Assembly: GCA_016845305.1 (NCBI GenBank)
Contig: JAERSW010000070.1
Span: forward strand, 1-64,000
DNA: 64,000 nucleotides
From: Acidimicrobiales bacterium
GTDB lineage: Bacteria; Actinomycetota; Acidimicrobiia; Acidimicrobiales; MedAcidi-G1
Direction of reading: 5' to 3'
The position numbers were made by a program, and so were the translations under genes. Below are positions 14,820-34,359 of this stretch, one piece after another (position 1 is the first letter of the stretch; each line of letters begins with the position of its first letter). A model generated the notes under the pieces. It had not been told where the DNA came from, did not search any database, and worked only from the letters and a program-made list of their open reading frames with translations.

Positions 14820-16526
14820 ATGCACGATCTGGTGGTCCGGGGTGGCTGGGTGGTCGACGGAACGGGCGCCGAGCGCGTCCGGGCCGACGTGGCCGTCGAC
14901 GACGGTCGGATCTCCGCCATCGGTCCCGACGTGGGACCCGGCGCCCGAGACCTGGACGCCGACGGCCGGATGGTGTGCCCGGGCTTCGTCGACGTCCACA
15001 CCCACTACGACGCCCAGGTCTTCTGGGACGGCACCCTCAGCCCGTCGCCGCTGCACGGCGTCACGTCTGTCATCGGCGGCAACTGCGGCTTCACCATCGC
15101 CCCCCTGTCCGACGATCCGGCCGACGGCGAGTACCTGATGCGGATGCTGTCGCGCGTCGAGGGCATGCCCCTGGAGTCGCTGCGCACCGGCGTGCCGTGG
15201 GACTGGCGGACCACCGCCGAGTACCTCGACGCCGTCGACCCCCTGCTGGCCGTCAACGCCGGCTTCAAGGTCGGCCACTCGGCCATCCGCCGGGTGGTGC
15301 TGGGCGACGAGGCCACCGAGCGGGAGGCCACCGACGACGAATTGGCCGCCATGGTCGACCTGCTCCGCGATGGCCTGGCGGTCGGCGCCATGGGCTTCTC
15401 GTCCACGTGGTCGACCACCCACAACGACCTGGAGGGTCGTCCGGTCCCCAGCCGGTGGGCGTCACGGGAGGAGGTCCTGGCCCTGTGTGCCGTGCTCCGC
15501 GACTTCCCCGGTACCAGCCTGGAGATGCTGGCCGCGGCCGGCGGGCCCACCGACGAGGAGTCGAAGGCCCTGCTGTGCGACATGTCGCTGGCCGCCGGCG
15601 GACGCCAGGTCAACTGGAACGTCATGCAGGTCACGGCCAACAACGTCGACGAATGCCTGGCCAAGCTGGACGCCTCGACCTACGCCGCCGAACGTGGGGC
15701 GAAGGTGGTGGCCCTGACCGTCCCCATGGTCATCGCGGCGCGCCTGTCGTTGGCCAGCGGCTTCGTGCTGGACGCCATCCCCGGCTGGCGCGAGGTCATG
15801 TTCATGCCGCACGAGGACAAGAAGCGGGTCCTGGCGGACCCGGAACAGCGTCGCCGCCTCGACGAGCTGGCCCAGGGCGACCATCCGTTCCGACGCCTGG
15901 CCCGGTGGGGCGCCATGACCGTGTTCGACACGGTGGCCCCGGAGAACGATGGCTGCGCCGGTCGCACCGTGGCCGACATCGCGGCGGAGCGGGGCTGCGA
16001 GCCCTTCGACGCCCTGCTCGACGTGGCCCTGGCCGACGACCTGCTCACCTCCTTCGGCTTCCCCGACACGGCGGCCAGCCGGGAGGACTGGGAGGCCCGG
16101 GTCGCCATCTGGCGCGACGGGCGGGCGGTGATCGGCGCCTCGGACGCCGGCGCCCACCTCGACCTGCTGGCCACCTTCAACTACCCCACCCGGGTGCTGG
16201 CCGAGCCGGTGCGCGACCACGGGCTGCTGTCGTTCGAGGAGGCCGTCCACCGCATGACCGCCGTACAGGCCGACCTGTACGGCCTCGTCGACCGGGGCCG
16301 CCTGGCCGAGGGTGCCCACGCCGACGTGATCCTCGTCGACGAAGAGGCCGTGGCCTCCGACCCGATCGCCATGCGGCCCGACCTGCCCGGCGGCGCGGCG
16401 CGGCTCTACGCCGGTGCGTCGGGCATCGACGACGTGCTGGTGGCCGGTGTGCCCGTGGTGGCCGACGGCGCGCTCACCGACCACCGGCCCGGCCGGGTGC
16501 TGCGCAGCGGCACCGACAGCCGCTGA
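14820..16526 (+). CDS. N-acyl-D-amino-acid deacylase-type amidohydrolase
   Basis: A 568-residue metal-dependent hydrolase. It has the N-terminal composite domain (MHDLVVRGGWVVDGTG), the metal-binding VDVHTHYDAQVFWD, the cysteine region IGGNCGFTIAPL typical of D-aminoacylases, and the later aspartate in GASDAGAHLDLL. The group cleaves N-acyl-D-amino acids, and some members act on other amides, so the substrate is tentative. It is divergent from an aldehyde dehydrogenase across a palindrome, and 42 bases upstream of an O-methyltransferase on the same strand. A short tandem duplication of CTGACCC occurs at the stop. Confidence 0.88.
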   Translation: MHDLVVRGGWVVDGTGAERVRADVAVDDGRISAIGPDVGPGARDLDADGRMVCPGFVDVHTHYDAQVFWDGTLSPSPLHGVTSVIGGNCGFTIAPLSDDPADGEYLMRMLSRVEGMPLESLRTGVPWDWRTTAEYLDAVDPLLAVNAGFKVGHSAIRRVVLGDEATEREATDDELAAMVDLLRDGLAVGAMGFSSTWSTTHNDLEGRPVPSRWASREEVLALCAVLRDFPGTSLEMLAAAGGPTDEESKALLCDMSLAAGGRQVNWNVMQVTANNVDECLAKLDASTYAAERGAKVVALTVPMVIAARLSLASGFVLDAIPGWREVMFMPHEDKKRVLADPEQRRRLDELAQGDHPFRRLARWGAMTVFDTVAPENDGCAGRTVADIAAERGCEPFDALLDVALADDLLTSFGFPDTAASREDWEARVAIWRDGRAVIGASDAGAHLDLLATFNYPTRVLAEPVRDHGLLSFEEAVHRMTAVQADLYGLVDRGRLAEGAHADVILVDEEAVASDPIAMRPDLPGGAARLYAGASGIDDVLVAGVPVVADGALTDHRPGRVLRSGTDSR

Positions 16527-16568
16527 CCCACTGACCCCCCACTGTTTGCCCCCGCTGGAGCCCACGCC

Positions 16569-17228
16569 GTGTCCGCACACCGATCCTTCTTCCTCGACGA
16601 GGACCTGCACGACTACGTGCTGGCCCACACCACGCCGGCCGACGAGGTCCGCCGGTCGCTGACCGACGCCACCGCCGCGCTCGGCCCGTGGGCGCGCATG
16701 CAGGTCGCCGACGACCAGGCCGCCCTGCTGTCCACGCTGGTGGCCGCCGTACGCCCCTCCCTGGCCGTCGAGGTCGGCACCTTCACCGGGTCGTCGTCGC
16801 TGGCCATCGCCCGGGCCCTGCCGCTGGGAGGCCGGTTGCTGTGCTGCGACGTGTCCGACGAGTGGACCGCCATCGCCCGCGAGCACTGGGCGGCGGCCGG
16901 CGTGGACGACCGCATCGACCTGGTCATCGCCCCGGCGCGGGAGACCCTGCGGGGGCTCCCGGACGACGCGGTGGTCGACTTCGCCTTCGTGGACGCCGAC
17001 AAGACCGGGTACCTCGCCTACTACGAGGAGCTCGTGCCCCGCCTGTCCCCGCACGGGATCCTGGCCATCGACAATGTCCTGTGGTCGGGCCGGGTGCTGG
17101 ACCCGACGGCGGACGACGACGACACCGAGGCCCTGCGAGTGCTGAACGACCGGATCGTGGCCGACGACCGGGTCGAGGTGGTCATGCTCTCGGTCGGCGA
17201 CGGCCTCACCCTCGTGCGCCGGGTCTGA
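16569..17228 (+). CDS. Class I SAM-dependent O-methyltransferase (CCoAOMT/COMT-like)
   Basis: A 219-residue soluble methyltransferase: motif I is VEVGTFTGSSSLAIARALP, followed by GRLLCCDVSDEW for the ribose contact, FAFVDADKTGYLAYYEEL for the metal and SAM region, and LAIDNVLWSGRV. This pattern belongs to the cation-dependent caffeoyl-CoA/catechol O-methyltransferase family, which methylates vicinal hydroxyls of aromatic compounds. The acceptor is unknown. The GTG start has a weak GGAG about 8 nt upstream. It probably follows the amidohydrolase in one transcript. Confidence 0.9.
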   Translation: MSAHRSFFLDEDLHDYVLAHTTPADEVRRSLTDATAALGPWARMQVADDQAALLSTLVAAVRPSLAVEVGTFTGSSSLAIARALPLGGRLLCCDVSDEWTAIAREHWAAAGVDDRIDLVIAPARETLRGLPDDAVVDFAFVDADKTGYLAYYEELVPRLSPHGILAIDNVLWSGRVLDPTADDDDTEALRVLNDRIVADDRVEVVMLSVGDGLTLVRRV

Positions 17229-17308
17229 ACGTCCTGGCGGCGCGCCCACACCAGCGGCCCTTCCTCCCCACTGGCCCTCCCCACTGGGTCCGGGTCCCCG
17301 ACCGGGAG

Positions 17309-17314
17309 TAGGAT
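17309..17314 (+). promoter_or_regulatory. Putative -10 box (TAGGAT) of the thiolase gene
   Basis: TAGGAT is directly followed by the palindrome at 17316-17335, so a bound repressor would cover the transcription start. Confidence 0.35.
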
Positions 17315-17315
17315 C

Positions 17316-17335
17316 GGGTTACCGGCCGGTAACCC
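17316..17335. promoter_or_regulatory. 20-bp perfect palindrome, putative operator
   Basis: GGGTTACCGG CCGGTAACCC is fully symmetric and ends 37 bases before the thiolase ATG. The core TTACCGGCCGGTAA has the size and style of TetR-family sites, which often control acyl-CoA genes in actinobacteria. The regulator is not in this window next to it. Confidence 0.7.
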
Positions 17336-17372
17336 ACCGGACCACGAGCAGCCCCCACAGGAGTCCCCACTC

Positions 17373-18575
17373 ATGGCCGAAGCCGTCATCGTCGCCACCA
17401 GCCGCACCGCCATCGGACGGGCGGGGAAGGGCGGCCTCGTGGACGCCCGCCCCGACGACCTGTCCGCCTTCGTCATCGACGACGTGCTCGGCAAGGTCCC
17501 CGAACTGCCCCGCGACCAGGTCGAGGACGTCATCTGGGGCACCGCCCAGCCGGGCGGCGAGCAGGGCTACAACCTGGGACGGGTGGCCGGCGTTCTGGCC
17601 GGCCTCGACGCCCCGGGCACGACCGTCAACCGGTACTGCTCGTCGTCGCTGCAGACCATCCGAATGGCCGCCCACGCCATCATGGCCGGCGAGGGCGACG
17701 CCTTCGTCTCCGGCGGCGTGGAGTGCGTGAGCCGCTTCCAGTTCGGCGCCGCCGACACCGGCCCCCACAACCCCCGCTTCGCCGAGGCCGAGGGCCGCAC
17801 CGCCGACCGGACCGGCGAGGGCACCGACGCGTGGGCGGCACCCGCCGGCCTGCCCGACATCCACATCGCCATGGGCCAGACCGCCGAGAACGTGGCCCAG
17901 CACAAGGGCGTGTCCCGCCAGGCCCAGGACGAGTGGGGCGTGCGCTCCCAGAACCGTGCCGAGGCCGCCCAGGCTCGCGGCTTCTTCGAGCGGGAGATCA
18001 CCCCGTACACGCTGCCCGACGGCTCCGTGTTCGCCCAGGACGACGGCATCCGGGCAGGCACCACCTACGAGAAGGTGTCCCAGCTGGCCCCGGTGTTCCG
18101 CCCCGACGGCACGGTGACGGCCGGCAACGCCTGCCCGCTCAACGACGGCGCCGCCGCGGTGGTCGTCATGAGCGCCACCCGGGCCGCCGAGCTGGGCATC
18201 AAGCCGCTGGCCCGGATCGTGGCGTCGGGCGTCTCGGCGCTGAACCCGGAGATCATGGGCCTCGGTCCCATCGAGGCCATCAAGCAGGCCCTGGGCCGGG
18301 CCGGCATGACCCCCGATGACATCGACCTGTTCGAGATCAACGAGGCCTTCGCCGCCCAGGTGCTGCCGTCGGCCGACGAGGTCGGCATCGACCACGACAA
18401 GCTGAACGTGAACGGCGGGGCGATCGCCCTCGGCCACCCGTTCGGCATGACGGGCGCCCGCATCATGACCACGCTGCTCAACGGTCTCGAGGACGCCGAC
18501 AAGGAGTGGGGCGTCGAGTCGATGTGCGTGGGCGGCGGCCAGGGCATGGCCATGGTCGTGCAGCGCCTGAGCTGA
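17373..18575 (+). CDS. Acetyl-CoA C-acyltransferase (thiolase)
   Basis: Degradative-type thiolase of 400 residues that cleaves 3-oxoacyl-CoA with CoA or condenses two acyl-CoAs. It shows the nucleophilic cysteine C89 in VNRYCSSSLQTI, the histidine in NVNGGAIALGHPFGMTGARI and the second cysteine in SMCVGGGQGMAM. AGGAG precedes ATG 17373 with suitable spacing. The palindrome over its promoter suggests ligand-controlled expression. The chain length of the substrate is unknown. It is convergent with aspartate dehydrogenase; a small palindrome CTGACGCTCGTCAG spans the two stop codons. Confidence 0.94.
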   Translation: MAEAVIVATSRTAIGRAGKGGLVDARPDDLSAFVIDDVLGKVPELPRDQVEDVIWGTAQPGGEQGYNLGRVAGVLAGLDAPGTTVNRYCSSSLQTIRMAAHAIMAGEGDAFVSGGVECVSRFQFGAADTGPHNPRFAEAEGRTADRTGEGTDAWAAPAGLPDIHIAMGQTAENVAQHKGVSRQAQDEWGVRSQNRAEAAQARGFFEREITPYTLPDGSVFAQDDGIRAGTTYEKVSQLAPVFRPDGTVTAGNACPLNDGAAAVVVMSATRAAELGIKPLARIVASGVSALNPEIMGLGPIEAIKQALGRAGMTPDDIDLFEINEAFAAQVLPSADEVGIDHDKLNVNGGAIALGHPFGMTGARIMTTLLNGLEDADKEWGVESMCVGGGQGMAMVVQRLS

Positions 18576-30864: not shown

Positions 30865-30897
30865 AAAAAGGCGACGACCTCCCGGTTCGGGAGGTCG
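30865..30897 (-). terminator. Attenuator terminator in the ilvB leader
   Basis: On the minus strand CGACCTCCCG AAC CGGGAGGTCG (10-bp perfect stem, 30875-30897) is followed by TCGCCTTTTT. This is the only hairpin plus T-run terminator I see in the window, and it lies 56 bases before ilvB, after a short leader peptide. Confidence 0.8.
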
Positions 30898-30943
30898 GGG
30901 CACGCAACCGTGGGGTCCCGCCGGGTGCGGGCGGGGCGCGTGC
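30898..30943 (-). promoter_or_regulatory. Alternative leader hairpins between the leader peptide and attenuator
   Basis: GGCACGC pairs with a downstream GCGTGCC (7 bp, ending at the base of the terminator stem), and CCCGCC pairs with GGCGGG inside it. These can compete with or precede the terminator, as in classical attenuation. Confidence 0.5.
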
Positions 30944-30994
30944 CTACGGCGTTACCAGTACCTCGGAGGCGACGGAGGTGGGAACGGCGTACAT
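30944..30994 (-). CDS. ilvBNC leader peptide
   Basis: A 16-residue ORF, MYAVPTSVASEVLVTP then TAG. Five of 16 residues are valine or leucine, with Val-Leu-Val just before the end. Ribosome stalling at these codons when charged valyl- or leucyl-tRNA is scarce would favour the alternative hairpin and read-through into ilvB. It has no Shine-Dalgarno sequence and appears leaderless. The gene is recognised by position, composition and the downstream attenuator, not by homology. Confidence 0.75.
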   Translation of the reverse strand: MYAVPTSVASEVLVTP

Positions 30995-31002
30995 CGCCCG
31001 CA

Positions 31003-31032
31003 ATTCTGCCGTGCGACCGCCCCCGACCGCAA
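31003..31032 (-). promoter_or_regulatory. Putative promoter of the ilv leader
   Basis: On the minus strand TTGCGG (31027-31032), 18-bp spacer, CAGAAT (31003-31008), then 8 nt to the leader-peptide ATG (30994). Confidence 0.5.
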
Positions 31033-31097: not shown

Positions 31098-31616
31098 ATG
31101 AGGTCGGGCGTCCAGCCGGGGTCGTTCGACCCGCCCACGCTGGCCCACCTGGCCATGGCCTTCGCCGCCGTGCGCCACCATGACCTCGACCGGGTGGTGT
31201 GGACCGTGTCACGCCAACCGCTCGGCAAGGACGCGGGACGGACCACCGTCGACGAGCGACTCGACGTGCTGCGGACCGTCGCCGCCGACCACCGGTGGCT
31301 GGAGGTCGCCGTCAGCGACGCCCGTCTGGTCGCGGACCTGGCCGACGGGCACGACGTCGTGGTCATGGGCGCCGACAAGTGGCACCAGCTCCACGATCCG
31401 GCCTTCTACGCCGACGAGGCCGCCATGGCCGACGCCCTGGCCCGCCTCCCGACGTGCGCGGTGGCCCCCCGACTGGGCCTGGGCGTCCCCGACGAGGTTC
31501 GCCTCGACGTCCCCGGGTGGGTGGCCCGCCAGTCGTCGACCGACGCCGTGGAGGGCGCCTCGTGGACGGCGCTGTCGGCGGCCCGGACCAGCGGCCTCTG
31601 GCCGGCGCTCGGCTGA
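31098..31616 (+). CDS. NadD/CoaD-like nucleotidyltransferase, divergent
   Basis: A 172-residue HxGH-class nucleotidyltransferase fold. GSFDPPTLAHLAMAFAAV carries the nucleotide-binding start, with TLAH where most members have TxGH or HxGH. VVVMGADKWHQLHD resembles the NadD/NMN-adenylyltransferase G(A/T)D region. The final ISSTxxR motif is only partly kept (QSSTDAVEG). It is shorter than typical NadD, so the substrate is open. It is close to, but not in, the kynurenine/NAD genes. GAGGGGG just upstream may serve as Shine-Dalgarno sequence. Confidence 0.72.
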   Translation: MRSGVQPGSFDPPTLAHLAMAFAAVRHHDLDRVVWTVSRQPLGKDAGRTTVDERLDVLRTVAADHRWLEVAVSDARLVADLADGHDVVVMGADKWHQLHDPAFYADEAAMADALARLPTCAVAPRLGLGVPDEVRLDVPGWVARQSSTDAVEGASWTALSAARTSGLWPALG

Positions 31617-31630
31617 CCGGCTGACCGGCT
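31611..31630. repeat. 8-bp tandem duplication across a stop codon
   Basis: GGCTGACC GGCTGACC GGCT: the first copy contains the TGA of the NadD-like gene. Confidence 0.8.
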
Positions 31631-31633
31631 CCC

Positions 31634-31664
31634 AGATCAGGCCTGGGTGACGGCGCCCTTCTCG
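31634..31664. repeat. 31-bp direct repeat, distal copy (att-like)
   Basis: Identical over 31 bases to 32662-32692, the 3' end of ilvD. It supplies the last codons and stop of the nuclease gene. The identity ends sharply on both sides. Confidence 0.9.
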
Positions 31665-32575
31665 AGTTCGAAGTGGACCCGGTACCGGTAGAAGTCGATG
31701 GCTGGCGCCACCTCGAGGGCACGCCGCAGCCGCTTGGAGTCCTCGAGGGCAATGATGGCCCCTCGCACCTGCTGGTCCTCGGTCGCCAGCTCGGCCTTCA
31801 CGAATCCCATGTAGCGCTGGATCTGACCGACGACCACATCCGACGCGCGACCGCGCTTCAACTCGACCACGAGCAACGTGGACCCGTCCTTGCTCACCGC
31901 CAGGAGATCCATGGGTCCGGTGTCGGTCGGGAACTGTTGACCGATGACCTCGCCGTCCTCCACATAGAGGTCGTACTCACTGGCGAGAGCGGTCTTCGAC
32001 CAGTTCGCCACCAGGAAGTCCTCCAGGTGGGCTTCGAGCGCGAATGCCGACGGATCCTCGACGGTGTCGTCGTCCACCGAGAGCACAGGTCCACTCCCAC
32101 CGGCCAGCGGCGCGATCTCCCCCGCATGCTTCGAGATCGACACCAGGGACTGCGGCCCACGTAGGGAACGCCAGAGGTCCTCGCTGAAGTGGTCCTTCTC
32201 GAAGGACTCGGTCTCCCACTGGACCTGCCGTCGATGCGGCAGGACCTCCCCTTCCGCATAGGTATAGCCACCGGTCACCTTGCCGAGGTGGAAGCGACCA
32301 TTGCCATCAGGGGCGAGGAGGACGTCGTCCTCTGCCATCCCCTGCCCGAGGCTCCAGAGTGCACCGCAGGCGAGGCCGGCCGCGACCCGACTCTTTCCCG
32401 GGTTCCTCTCCAACCAGAGGTCCAGATGGCCAGCGTTGAACTGCCGCCAATCCGCGCCGAACCGACCGGTCAGGTCGATGTGGACCCGATAGTCGAGGCC
32501 CACGAAACCGCCGCTCAGACAGGCCTGCGCATGAGCGCCCTCCCTGCCGAGCCTGATCCGCCAGTACTCAGTCAC
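31637..32575 (-). CDS. PD-(D/E)xK nuclease, NucS-like C-terminal domain
   Basis: A 312-residue protein. The N-terminal 120 residues (TEYWRIRLGREG, GRFHLGKVTGGYTYAEGE) form a small beta-rich domain like those that precede nuclease domains in restriction-type proteins. The C-terminal half has LEDFLVANW (about 184-192) and a PD-(D/E)xK core: D223 in GPMDLLAV, E238 and K240 in VVELKRG, Q251 in GQIQRYMGF. The last residues EKGAVTQA are identical to the ilvD C-terminus because they are encoded by the direct repeat. GTG 32575 has a strong GGAGGA Shine-Dalgarno sequence, unlike nearby genes. A defence role is possible but not shown. Confidence 0.8.
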   Translation of the reverse strand: MTEYWRIRLGREGAHAQACLSGGFVGLDYRVHIDLTGRFGADWRQFNAGHLDLWLERNPGKSRVAAGLACGALWSLGQGMAEDDVLLAPDGNGRFHLGKVTGGYTYAEGEVLPHRRQVQWETESFEKDHFSEDLWRSLRGPQSLVSISKHAGEIAPLAGGSGPVLSVDDDTVEDPSAFALEAHLEDFLVANWSKTALASEYDLYVEDGEVIGQQFPTDTGPMDLLAVSKDGSTLLVVELKRGRASDVVVGQIQRYMGFVKAELATEDQQVRGAIIALEDSKRLRRALEVAPAIDFYRYRVHFELEKGAVTQA

Positions 32576-32597
32576 CAGTCACTTCCTCCATTTGACA

Positions 32598-32616
32598 CCC
32601 GAGAAGGAACCTCGGG
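32598..32616. terminator. Small hairpin inside the cassette boundary region
   Basis: CCCGAG AAGGAAC CTCGGG, a 6-bp stem with a 7-nt loop, lies between the nuclease start and the proximal repeat. There is no T-run; it could end ilvD transcription or be incidental. Confidence 0.3.
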
Positions 32617-32661
32617 CAGATGAGCGAGAGCAGAGATCGAGTGGCCCGGTGGCCGGCAGGG

Positions 32662-32692
32662 AGATCAGGCCTGGGTGACGGCGCCCTTCTCG
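32662..32692. repeat. 31-bp direct repeat, proximal copy in ilvD
   Basis: Covers the last codons and stop of ilvD (EKGAVTQA) plus a few bases beyond. It is identical to 31634-31664. Confidence 0.9.
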
Positions 32693-34359
32693 GCTCCCTG
32701 GGCCAGGGCGGCGTACTTGGCCAGGAAGCCGGAGGTGTAGCGGGGCTCGAACGGCTTCAGGTTGGCCCGACGCTCGGCCAGCGTGGCCTCGTCGACCAGC
32801 AGGTCGATGGTGTGGCCGACCACGTCGATGGCGATCCGGTCGCCCTCCTCGACCAGCCCGATGGGTCCACCGTCGACGGCCTCGGGGGCCACGTGGCCGA
32901 TGCAGAAGCCGTGGGTCCCGCCGGAGAATCGGCCGTCGGTGACCAGCGCGGCGTCGCCGCCCCGGCCCGCGCCCTTCATGGCGCCGGTGATGGCCAGCAT
33001 CTCGCGCATCCCGGGACCACCCTTGGGGCCCTCGTGGCGGATGACGACCACGTCGCCGGCCTCGATCCGGTCGCCGAGCACGGCGGCCATGGCCGCGTCC
33101 TCGCCGTCGAAGACGCGTGCCCGACCCTCGAAGCGGTCGAAGTCGATGCCGGCCACCTTCACCACCGCCCCCTTGGGGGCCAGCGAACCGCGCAGCACGG
33201 CCAGGCCGCCCAACTCGTGGATCGGGTCGTCGAAGGCGTGGACCACGTCGCCGTCGGGCGGAGGCACGTCCAGCAGGGCCAGGTTCTCGCCCATCGTCCG
33301 TCCGGTGACGGTGATCTCGTCGAGGTGCAGCAGGCCCTCGTCGGCCAGCATCTGCAGGACCACCGGCACGCCACCGATCCGGTCGATGTCGACCATGTGG
33401 TACCGGCCGTGGGGCTTGGTGTCGGCCAGGTGCGGCACCTTGGCCGCCACCCGGTTGAAGTCCTCCAGCTCCAGGTCGACCTCGGCCTCGAAGGCCATGG
33501 CCAGCAGGTGGAGCACGGCGTTGGTGGAGCCGCCGAGGGCCATGACCGCGGCGATGGCGTTCTCGAAGGCCCCCTTGGTCATGATGTGGCGTGGCCGGAT
33601 GCCCTCGCGCAGCAGGTTCATGACGGCCACGCCGCTGGCGTAGGCCACGTCGGCCCGCCGGTTGTCGATGGCCGCCGCCGACGCCGAGCCGGGCAGCGAC
33701 ATGCCGATGGCCTCGCCGATCGACGCCATGGTGTTGGCGGTGAACATGCCGCCACAGCTGCCGATGGTCGGGCAGGCCTCCCGCTCGATGGTCAGGAGCT
33801 CGTCGTCGTCGATGCCGCCCACGGCGTGGGCGCCGACCGCCTCGAACACGCTGACCACGTCCAGGGCCCGACCGTCGGGATGGCGGCCCGGCATGATCGA
33901 GCCGCCGTAGACGAACACCGACGGCAGGTTGATGCGGGCCGAGGCCATCATCATCCCGGGCAGCGACTTGTCGCAGCCGGCGAAGCTGACGAAGGCGTCG
34001 AGGCGCTCGGCGTGCATGACCGCCTCCACCGAGTCGGCGATGATCTCGCGGCTCACCAGGCTGGCCCGCATGCCCTCGTGGCCCATCGAGATGCCGTCGG
34101 ACACGGCGATGGTGTTGAACTCGATGGGGAAGCCGCCGGCCTCGGCGACGCCCTCCTTGCAGCGCTTGGCGAGGGCGCCCAGCGGCATGTTGCATGGGGT
34201 GACCTCGTTCCACGACGACGCCACGCCCACCTGGGACTTGCCGAAGTCGTCCTCGGTCATGCCGATGGCCCGGAGCATGGCCCTCGCCGGGGCCTTGGCC
34301 GGCCCCTCGGTCACGTCGTGGCTGCGGGGCTTCATCCCCCCGTGGGTCAGGTCCGTCAT
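32665..34359 (-). CDS. ilvD: Dihydroxy-acid dehydratase
   Basis: Iron-sulfur dehydratase, third step of valine/isoleucine synthesis. The 564 residues contain cluster cysteines in [23 protein letters not shown] and [16 protein letters not shown], and the C-terminal [22 protein letters not shown] in parts ([21 protein letters not shown]). ATG 34359 has TAGCCT 7 nt upstream and no Shine-Dalgarno sequence. The 3' end is duplicated beyond the nuclease cassette. Separated from ilvBNC by that cassette and the NadD-like gene. Confidence 0.97.

Follow-up and report, generated by a model that had tools for sequence, protein, structure and literature searches.

The window analysed here, a 64,000-nucleotide stretch of the genome of an Acidimicrobiales bacterium, carries an identical 31-nt direct repeat at 31634-31664 and 32662-32692, its copies lying 1028 bp apart around one nuclease gene. 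The nuclease gene (31637..32575, minus strand) begins with GTG and encodes 312 aa. On the same strand lies an intact ilvD (32665..34359), encoding a dihydroxy-acid dehydratase of 564 aa, while a convergent cytidylyltransferase-like (NadD-like) gene occupies 31098..31616 on the plus strand; in relatives, the 3' end of the latter adjoins ilvD. The 86 nt between the ilvD copy of the repeat and the nuclease start (32576..32661, minus strand) include a GGAGGA ribosome-binding-like site, recognised by eye. This leader matched nothing in 60 relatives or elsewhere in its own genome, and promoter and terminator scans of 31550-32760, as well as RNA folding of the leader, returned nothing (folding z 0.24). 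Elsewhere in the window, the minus-strand gene ilvB has a possible attenuator ahead of it (30870-31010), where a valine-rich reading frame ending MYAVPTSVASEVLVTP precedes a terminator-like hairpin with a T run (30897-30875; 0.2 expected in shuffles).

The repeated end of ilvD

The repeat spans from one base 5' of a GAG codon to three bases beyond a TGA stop. On the minus strand, its proximal copy (32662..32692) comprises the 3' end of ilvD and the next three bases, and its distal copy (31634..31664) encodes the residues EKGAVTQA and the stop of the nuclease (31637-31663). The nuclease thereby shares its final eight residues with IlvD and uses an ilvD-derived stop, because its reading frame enters the distal copy in the phase of ilvD. 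The sequence-only reading of this DNA had claimed such an in-phase fusion, which the ends of the two open reading frames and the 31-nt repeat bear out; the shared DNA it described is real, but the extent it gave, 31637-31664, was slightly short. In the other two phases the tail past the junction would have run to 99 or 150 residues, its coding sequence lying antisense to the gene next door.

Both the repeat and the fusion are direct observations. The pair is the longest exact direct repeat of the window (the runner-up measures 19 nt), and base composition leads one to expect about 1.5e-7 exact direct repeats of at least 31 nt per window. Immediately outside the copies the sequences are dissimilar, with 3/12 and 7/12 bases matching, and no third copy was found in the 2.9-Mb draft genome with up to three mismatches allowed. 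We also sought other repeat-flanked inserts in the window and about 252 kb of the same genome (overlaps included), among the four longest pairs listed per stretch; no pair that was inspected looked like an insertion. These were a second 31-nt pair on contig C27 (L161, about 14900-17700), within tandem copies of a ~900-base unit that are 75-77% alike, and a 35-nt exact pair 198 nt apart on the window's own contig, C70 (L154, 5973-6216), which is a short local repeat; the list also held a pair of 20 nt.

A probable insertion unit and its empty site

One copy of the repeat and the 997 bp between the copies make up an inferred insertion unit of 1028 bp (31634..32661). At 65.3% G+C, the 997 bp are among the lowest of the window, where equal-sized stretches have a median of 73.6%. 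The nuclease is the sole gene recognised between the repeats, and no integrase or recombinase was found in the 1028 bp. Among the 16 other genomes of the genus, all of which possess ilvD, the site is empty in each of the 15 that can be assessed: the end of ilvD is followed by sequence aligning with the NadD-like 3' end. Subtracting 1028 bp from the window yields the arrangement of these 15 loci. Both the deviating composition and the relatives' empty site are thus matters of observation. The count leaves out locus L031 of the closest relative, G005 (92%), whose contig ends ahead of the site. Because this contig breaks off 115 nt short of the ilvD stop codon, and because the downstream flank of the locus was searched for and not found, G005 is uninformative on the site; strains may vary at this ilvD position. 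As the repeat copies are identical and the site is empty in relatives, the insertion is apparently recent.

No full-length counterpart of the nuclease was found in the 60 relatives, and partial matches in 47 of them (E 1e-7 to 1e-3) fall, with one exception, on the NucS-like half. At E 1e-8, seven of 395 genomes of the class, the window's own included, have a match, the best of the others being 48% identical over residues 1-304. The closest relative found, among the best 80 of 359 genome relatives, is 56% identical and belongs to an alphaproteobacterial bin. Searches for the donor did not find it. Phages searched by protein gave no donor, and by junction DNA gave eight records at E 0.9, which is chance level; plasmids gave 24 records by protein, every one below 60% identity, and by DNA one 73% stretch at 29% coverage; viral contigs gave two loci at 48% by protein, neither of them a donor, and none by the 31-nt repeat.

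Domains and likely function of the nuclease

The predicted fold comprises an EVE/YTH-like PUA-type domain (model residues 1-164) and a NucS-like PD-(D/E)XK domain (residues about 171-302). The AlphaFold model, for which 49 of 81 homologues entered the alignment, has a mean pLDDT of 84.8 and a pTM of 0.51. Its residues 1-160 match 2p5d (Z 10.2, rmsd 2.8, 112 aligned) and residues 2-160 match 6yex (Z 10.0, rmsd 3.1, 121 aligned); the N-terminal part also matches 2hd9 and the EVE-HNH enzyme VcaM4I (Z about 10), as well as YTH domains (Z about 8 to 9.5). We take 2p5d and 2hd9 to be EVE proteins. Residues 171-302 match EndoMS (5gke; Z 13.7, rmsd 3.7, 115 aligned), and Pfam places NucS_C in the C-terminal part. 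The C-terminal domain alone is common to NucS/EndoMS and this nuclease, which falls far short of the equivalog cut-offs of that family (scores of 42.8 and 26.8 bits where 216 and 252 are required). D223, E238 and K240, presumably the catalytic motif, are invariant in the 50 aligned sequences.

The PADLOC profile PDC-S02 is matched at full length (1-306 of 312 aa, profile 1-307 of 308, E 3.6e-131), from which the window nuclease differs by its eight IlvD-identical end residues. One paper, in the passages found, lists PDC-S02 as a system and says no more of it. EVE domains have been discussed, in the excerpts seen of PMC7641849, as specificity modules of modification-dependent restriction. VcaM4I (PMC7897488) shares with our protein a reader fold of the PUA superfamily joined to a nuclease domain; that domain is HNH in VcaM4I, whereas in the window enzyme, known by its predicted fold, it is NucS-like PD-(D/E)XK. 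A homologue on an Acinetobacter plasmid (L059, 4980-5915) lies between hsdS and Abi/hsdR genes in a type I restriction-modification cluster. Because of the EVE/YTH-like and NucS-like folds, the PDC-S02 match and this homologue, the protein is likely a candidate modification-dependent, antiphage restriction enzyme, and the pairing of an EVE/YTH-like reader with a NucS-like nuclease suggests a plausible type IV-like restriction architecture for PDC-S02.

The borrowed tail, as modelled, is outside the fold. Beyond residue 297 the model shows neither helix nor strand, pLDDT falls to 62 (301-310) and 48 (311-312), and the best NucS structure matches end at 301-302.

Origin of the fused C-terminus

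The native end of the family can be read directly from its homologues. The set consists of the best 80 of 359 confirmed genome relatives plus two viral loci; of these 82, L131 was left out of all C-terminus counts owing to an early frame break, leaving 81 with a readable C-terminus. After a conserved F-x-L, three residues follow in 55/81, four or fewer in 67/81 and eight or more in 6/81. That the native end would lie before EKGAVTQA had been proposed as a check on the fusion, and indeed 67 of the 81 homologues terminate 2-4 residues past F-x-L. The same reading would have been undone by homologues away from ilvD ending in EKGAVTQA; neither VTQ nor GAV occurs in any of the 81 tails, and EKGAVTQA is ruled out as the native end of the family. 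Three proteins outside the 81 (L024, L059 and L061) likewise have C-termini without this tail. Since homologues mostly end soon after F-x-L, the window nuclease is lengthened by about five residues. The tail need not be foreign throughout: EKG resembles the native family end and may coincide with the one that was lost, in which case the foreign part may be no more than AVTQA. Tails of eight residues are uncommon yet within natural variation, and length by itself proves nothing, because six of the 81 homologues have natural tails of at least eight residues.

Whether the element is built so that its cargo is completed by the target, or the fusion arose by chance, was posed as an alternative by the sequence-only reading. 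If such completion were by design, homologues should carry flanking repeats or target-like tails. At 79 testable homologue loci (500 bases each side; L082 and L140 were omitted, their flanks being too short), the longest flanking repeat measured 16 nt, at one locus (L063), while 1 of 268 shifted control pairs exceeded that length (22 nt). In none of the 81 homologues did the last 36 nt of the gene recur over more than 13 nt in the same locus. Within the DNA fetched, none of 89 homologue loci had ilvD nearby, and the expected counterpart, other cassettes fused in phase at ilvD, did not appear; seven of these loci (L024-L027, L059-L061), some just 2-4 kb long, were used in this check only. By a strict pattern, which matched 11 of 395 class genomes, the ilvD end is present twice in the window's own genome only. 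The fusion is thus real and its design unsupported: with 0/79 flanking repeats above 16 nt and 0/89 loci with ilvD nearby, cargo completed by its target is a single case, and a family-wide design is rejected on the lack of long flanking repeats and of recurring gene ends. A related notion, which we regard as very improbable, is that the nuclease moves as a minimal element of one gene, with gene end and attachment site being one sequence at which recombination occurs, so that target gene and nuclease are both completed whenever it inserts behind a matching gene end. One phase in three, combined with presumed selection against tails of 99 or 150 residues, is enough to explain what we observe, and the fusion most likely arose as a side effect of one insertion and not by design.

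We consider it probable that the 3' end of ilvD received a foreign nuclease gene, with duplication of 31 bp of the target, and that the junction fell in phase by chance. A single foreign gene, probably that of a modification-dependent restriction enzyme, would have entered the end of ilvD; the 31-bp duplication would have left ilvD its own end in the proximal copy, while the nuclease, linked to the second copy at a point near its native end and in the frame of ilvD, would have gained the last eight codons and stop of ilvD. Chance would have set the phase, and selection would have favoured a tail that was short and harmless. That one event made the duplication, and that chance and selection set the phase, is what we infer from these observations. 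The closest description of the mechanism, by analogy, may be the insertion with long target duplication reported for restriction-modification genes (Nobusato 2000; Furuta 2010, as cited in the parts of PMC3874152, PMC3031569 and PMC1643837 available). Judging from those parts, the likeness lies in a restriction-type gene, a conserved locus, direct repeats of the target and an insert lacking a recombinase gene. The differences are that the duplication here is 31 bp, in one case, as against a variable length on the order of 100 bp in what was seen of PMC3874152, and that the window has a single nuclease gene whose reading frame is completed by the duplicated target. As there is one case, and 79 homologue loci lack such repeats, the nuclease family is not shown to move by long target duplication.

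The repeat might instead be the att core of a site-specific integration at the ilvD 3' end, the nuclease being cargo, or what is left of a larger element, with a gene that ended in attP and an integrase that worked in trans or has disappeared. Site-specific integration usually leaves a perfect repeat that rebuilds the 3' end of the target gene, and just such a repeat accompanies the intact ilvD here. Integration in trans could draw on recombinases encoded elsewhere in the genome (L167, L168, L169 and L170): three tyrosine recombinases with scores below the cut-offs for Xer, plus a serine recombinase close to the end of a contig. Phage repressor genes containing attP lose a C-terminal tag on integration, according to the sections of PMC9635641 that were found, and both there and here a C-terminus depends on the integration site; relative to that phage immunity as those sections present it, the window's insert lacks an integrase and gives no sign of a switch. 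We nevertheless judge integration of this kind rather unlikely, given a 1028-bp insert without an integrase, no second ilvD-end copy in the other class genomes under the strict pattern, and the absence of the sequence from viral contigs by exact or degenerate search. A narrow literature search, which carries little weight, found no report of islands at the ilvD end or of att sites at gene ends.

Capture through microhomology, in which a nuclease end already reading about GAG AAG G was joined to ilvD by replication or repair so that both sides had some of the 31 bp in common from the start, would agree with the homologues, where K stands at the second position after F-x-L in 67/81, EK occurs in 6/81 and x-K-G-stop in 8/81. 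A search of the draft genome for Ku found none, which makes Ku-dependent end joining less likely, although the same search was positive in only one of 14 named control genomes. This route is doubtful, as no donor emerged from the searches and the remaining ilvD end, about 22 bp, would still need a second copy. These assessments are not exclusive, and microhomology may have played a part within the favoured insertion itself. The source genome is a draft of 136 contigs which, with the deviating composition and the contig break in G005 short of the ilvD stop, might point to an assembly artefact; but a misjoin alone would not make an in-phase 31-nt copy of ilvD at the native end of the nuclease, and the contig, at 135 kb, extends to both sides of the insert. 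An artefact is accordingly highly improbable.

Insertion with duplication of the target, which we favour, would mean that this locus cleanly records the arrival of a defence-type nuclease gene at a conserved biosynthetic site, with the empty state known from relatives and no visible transposition genes. It also advises caution, in that the final residues of horizontally acquired proteins may come from the insertion site. If recombination turned out to act at the 31 bp, the locus would reveal a mobile unit of very small size.
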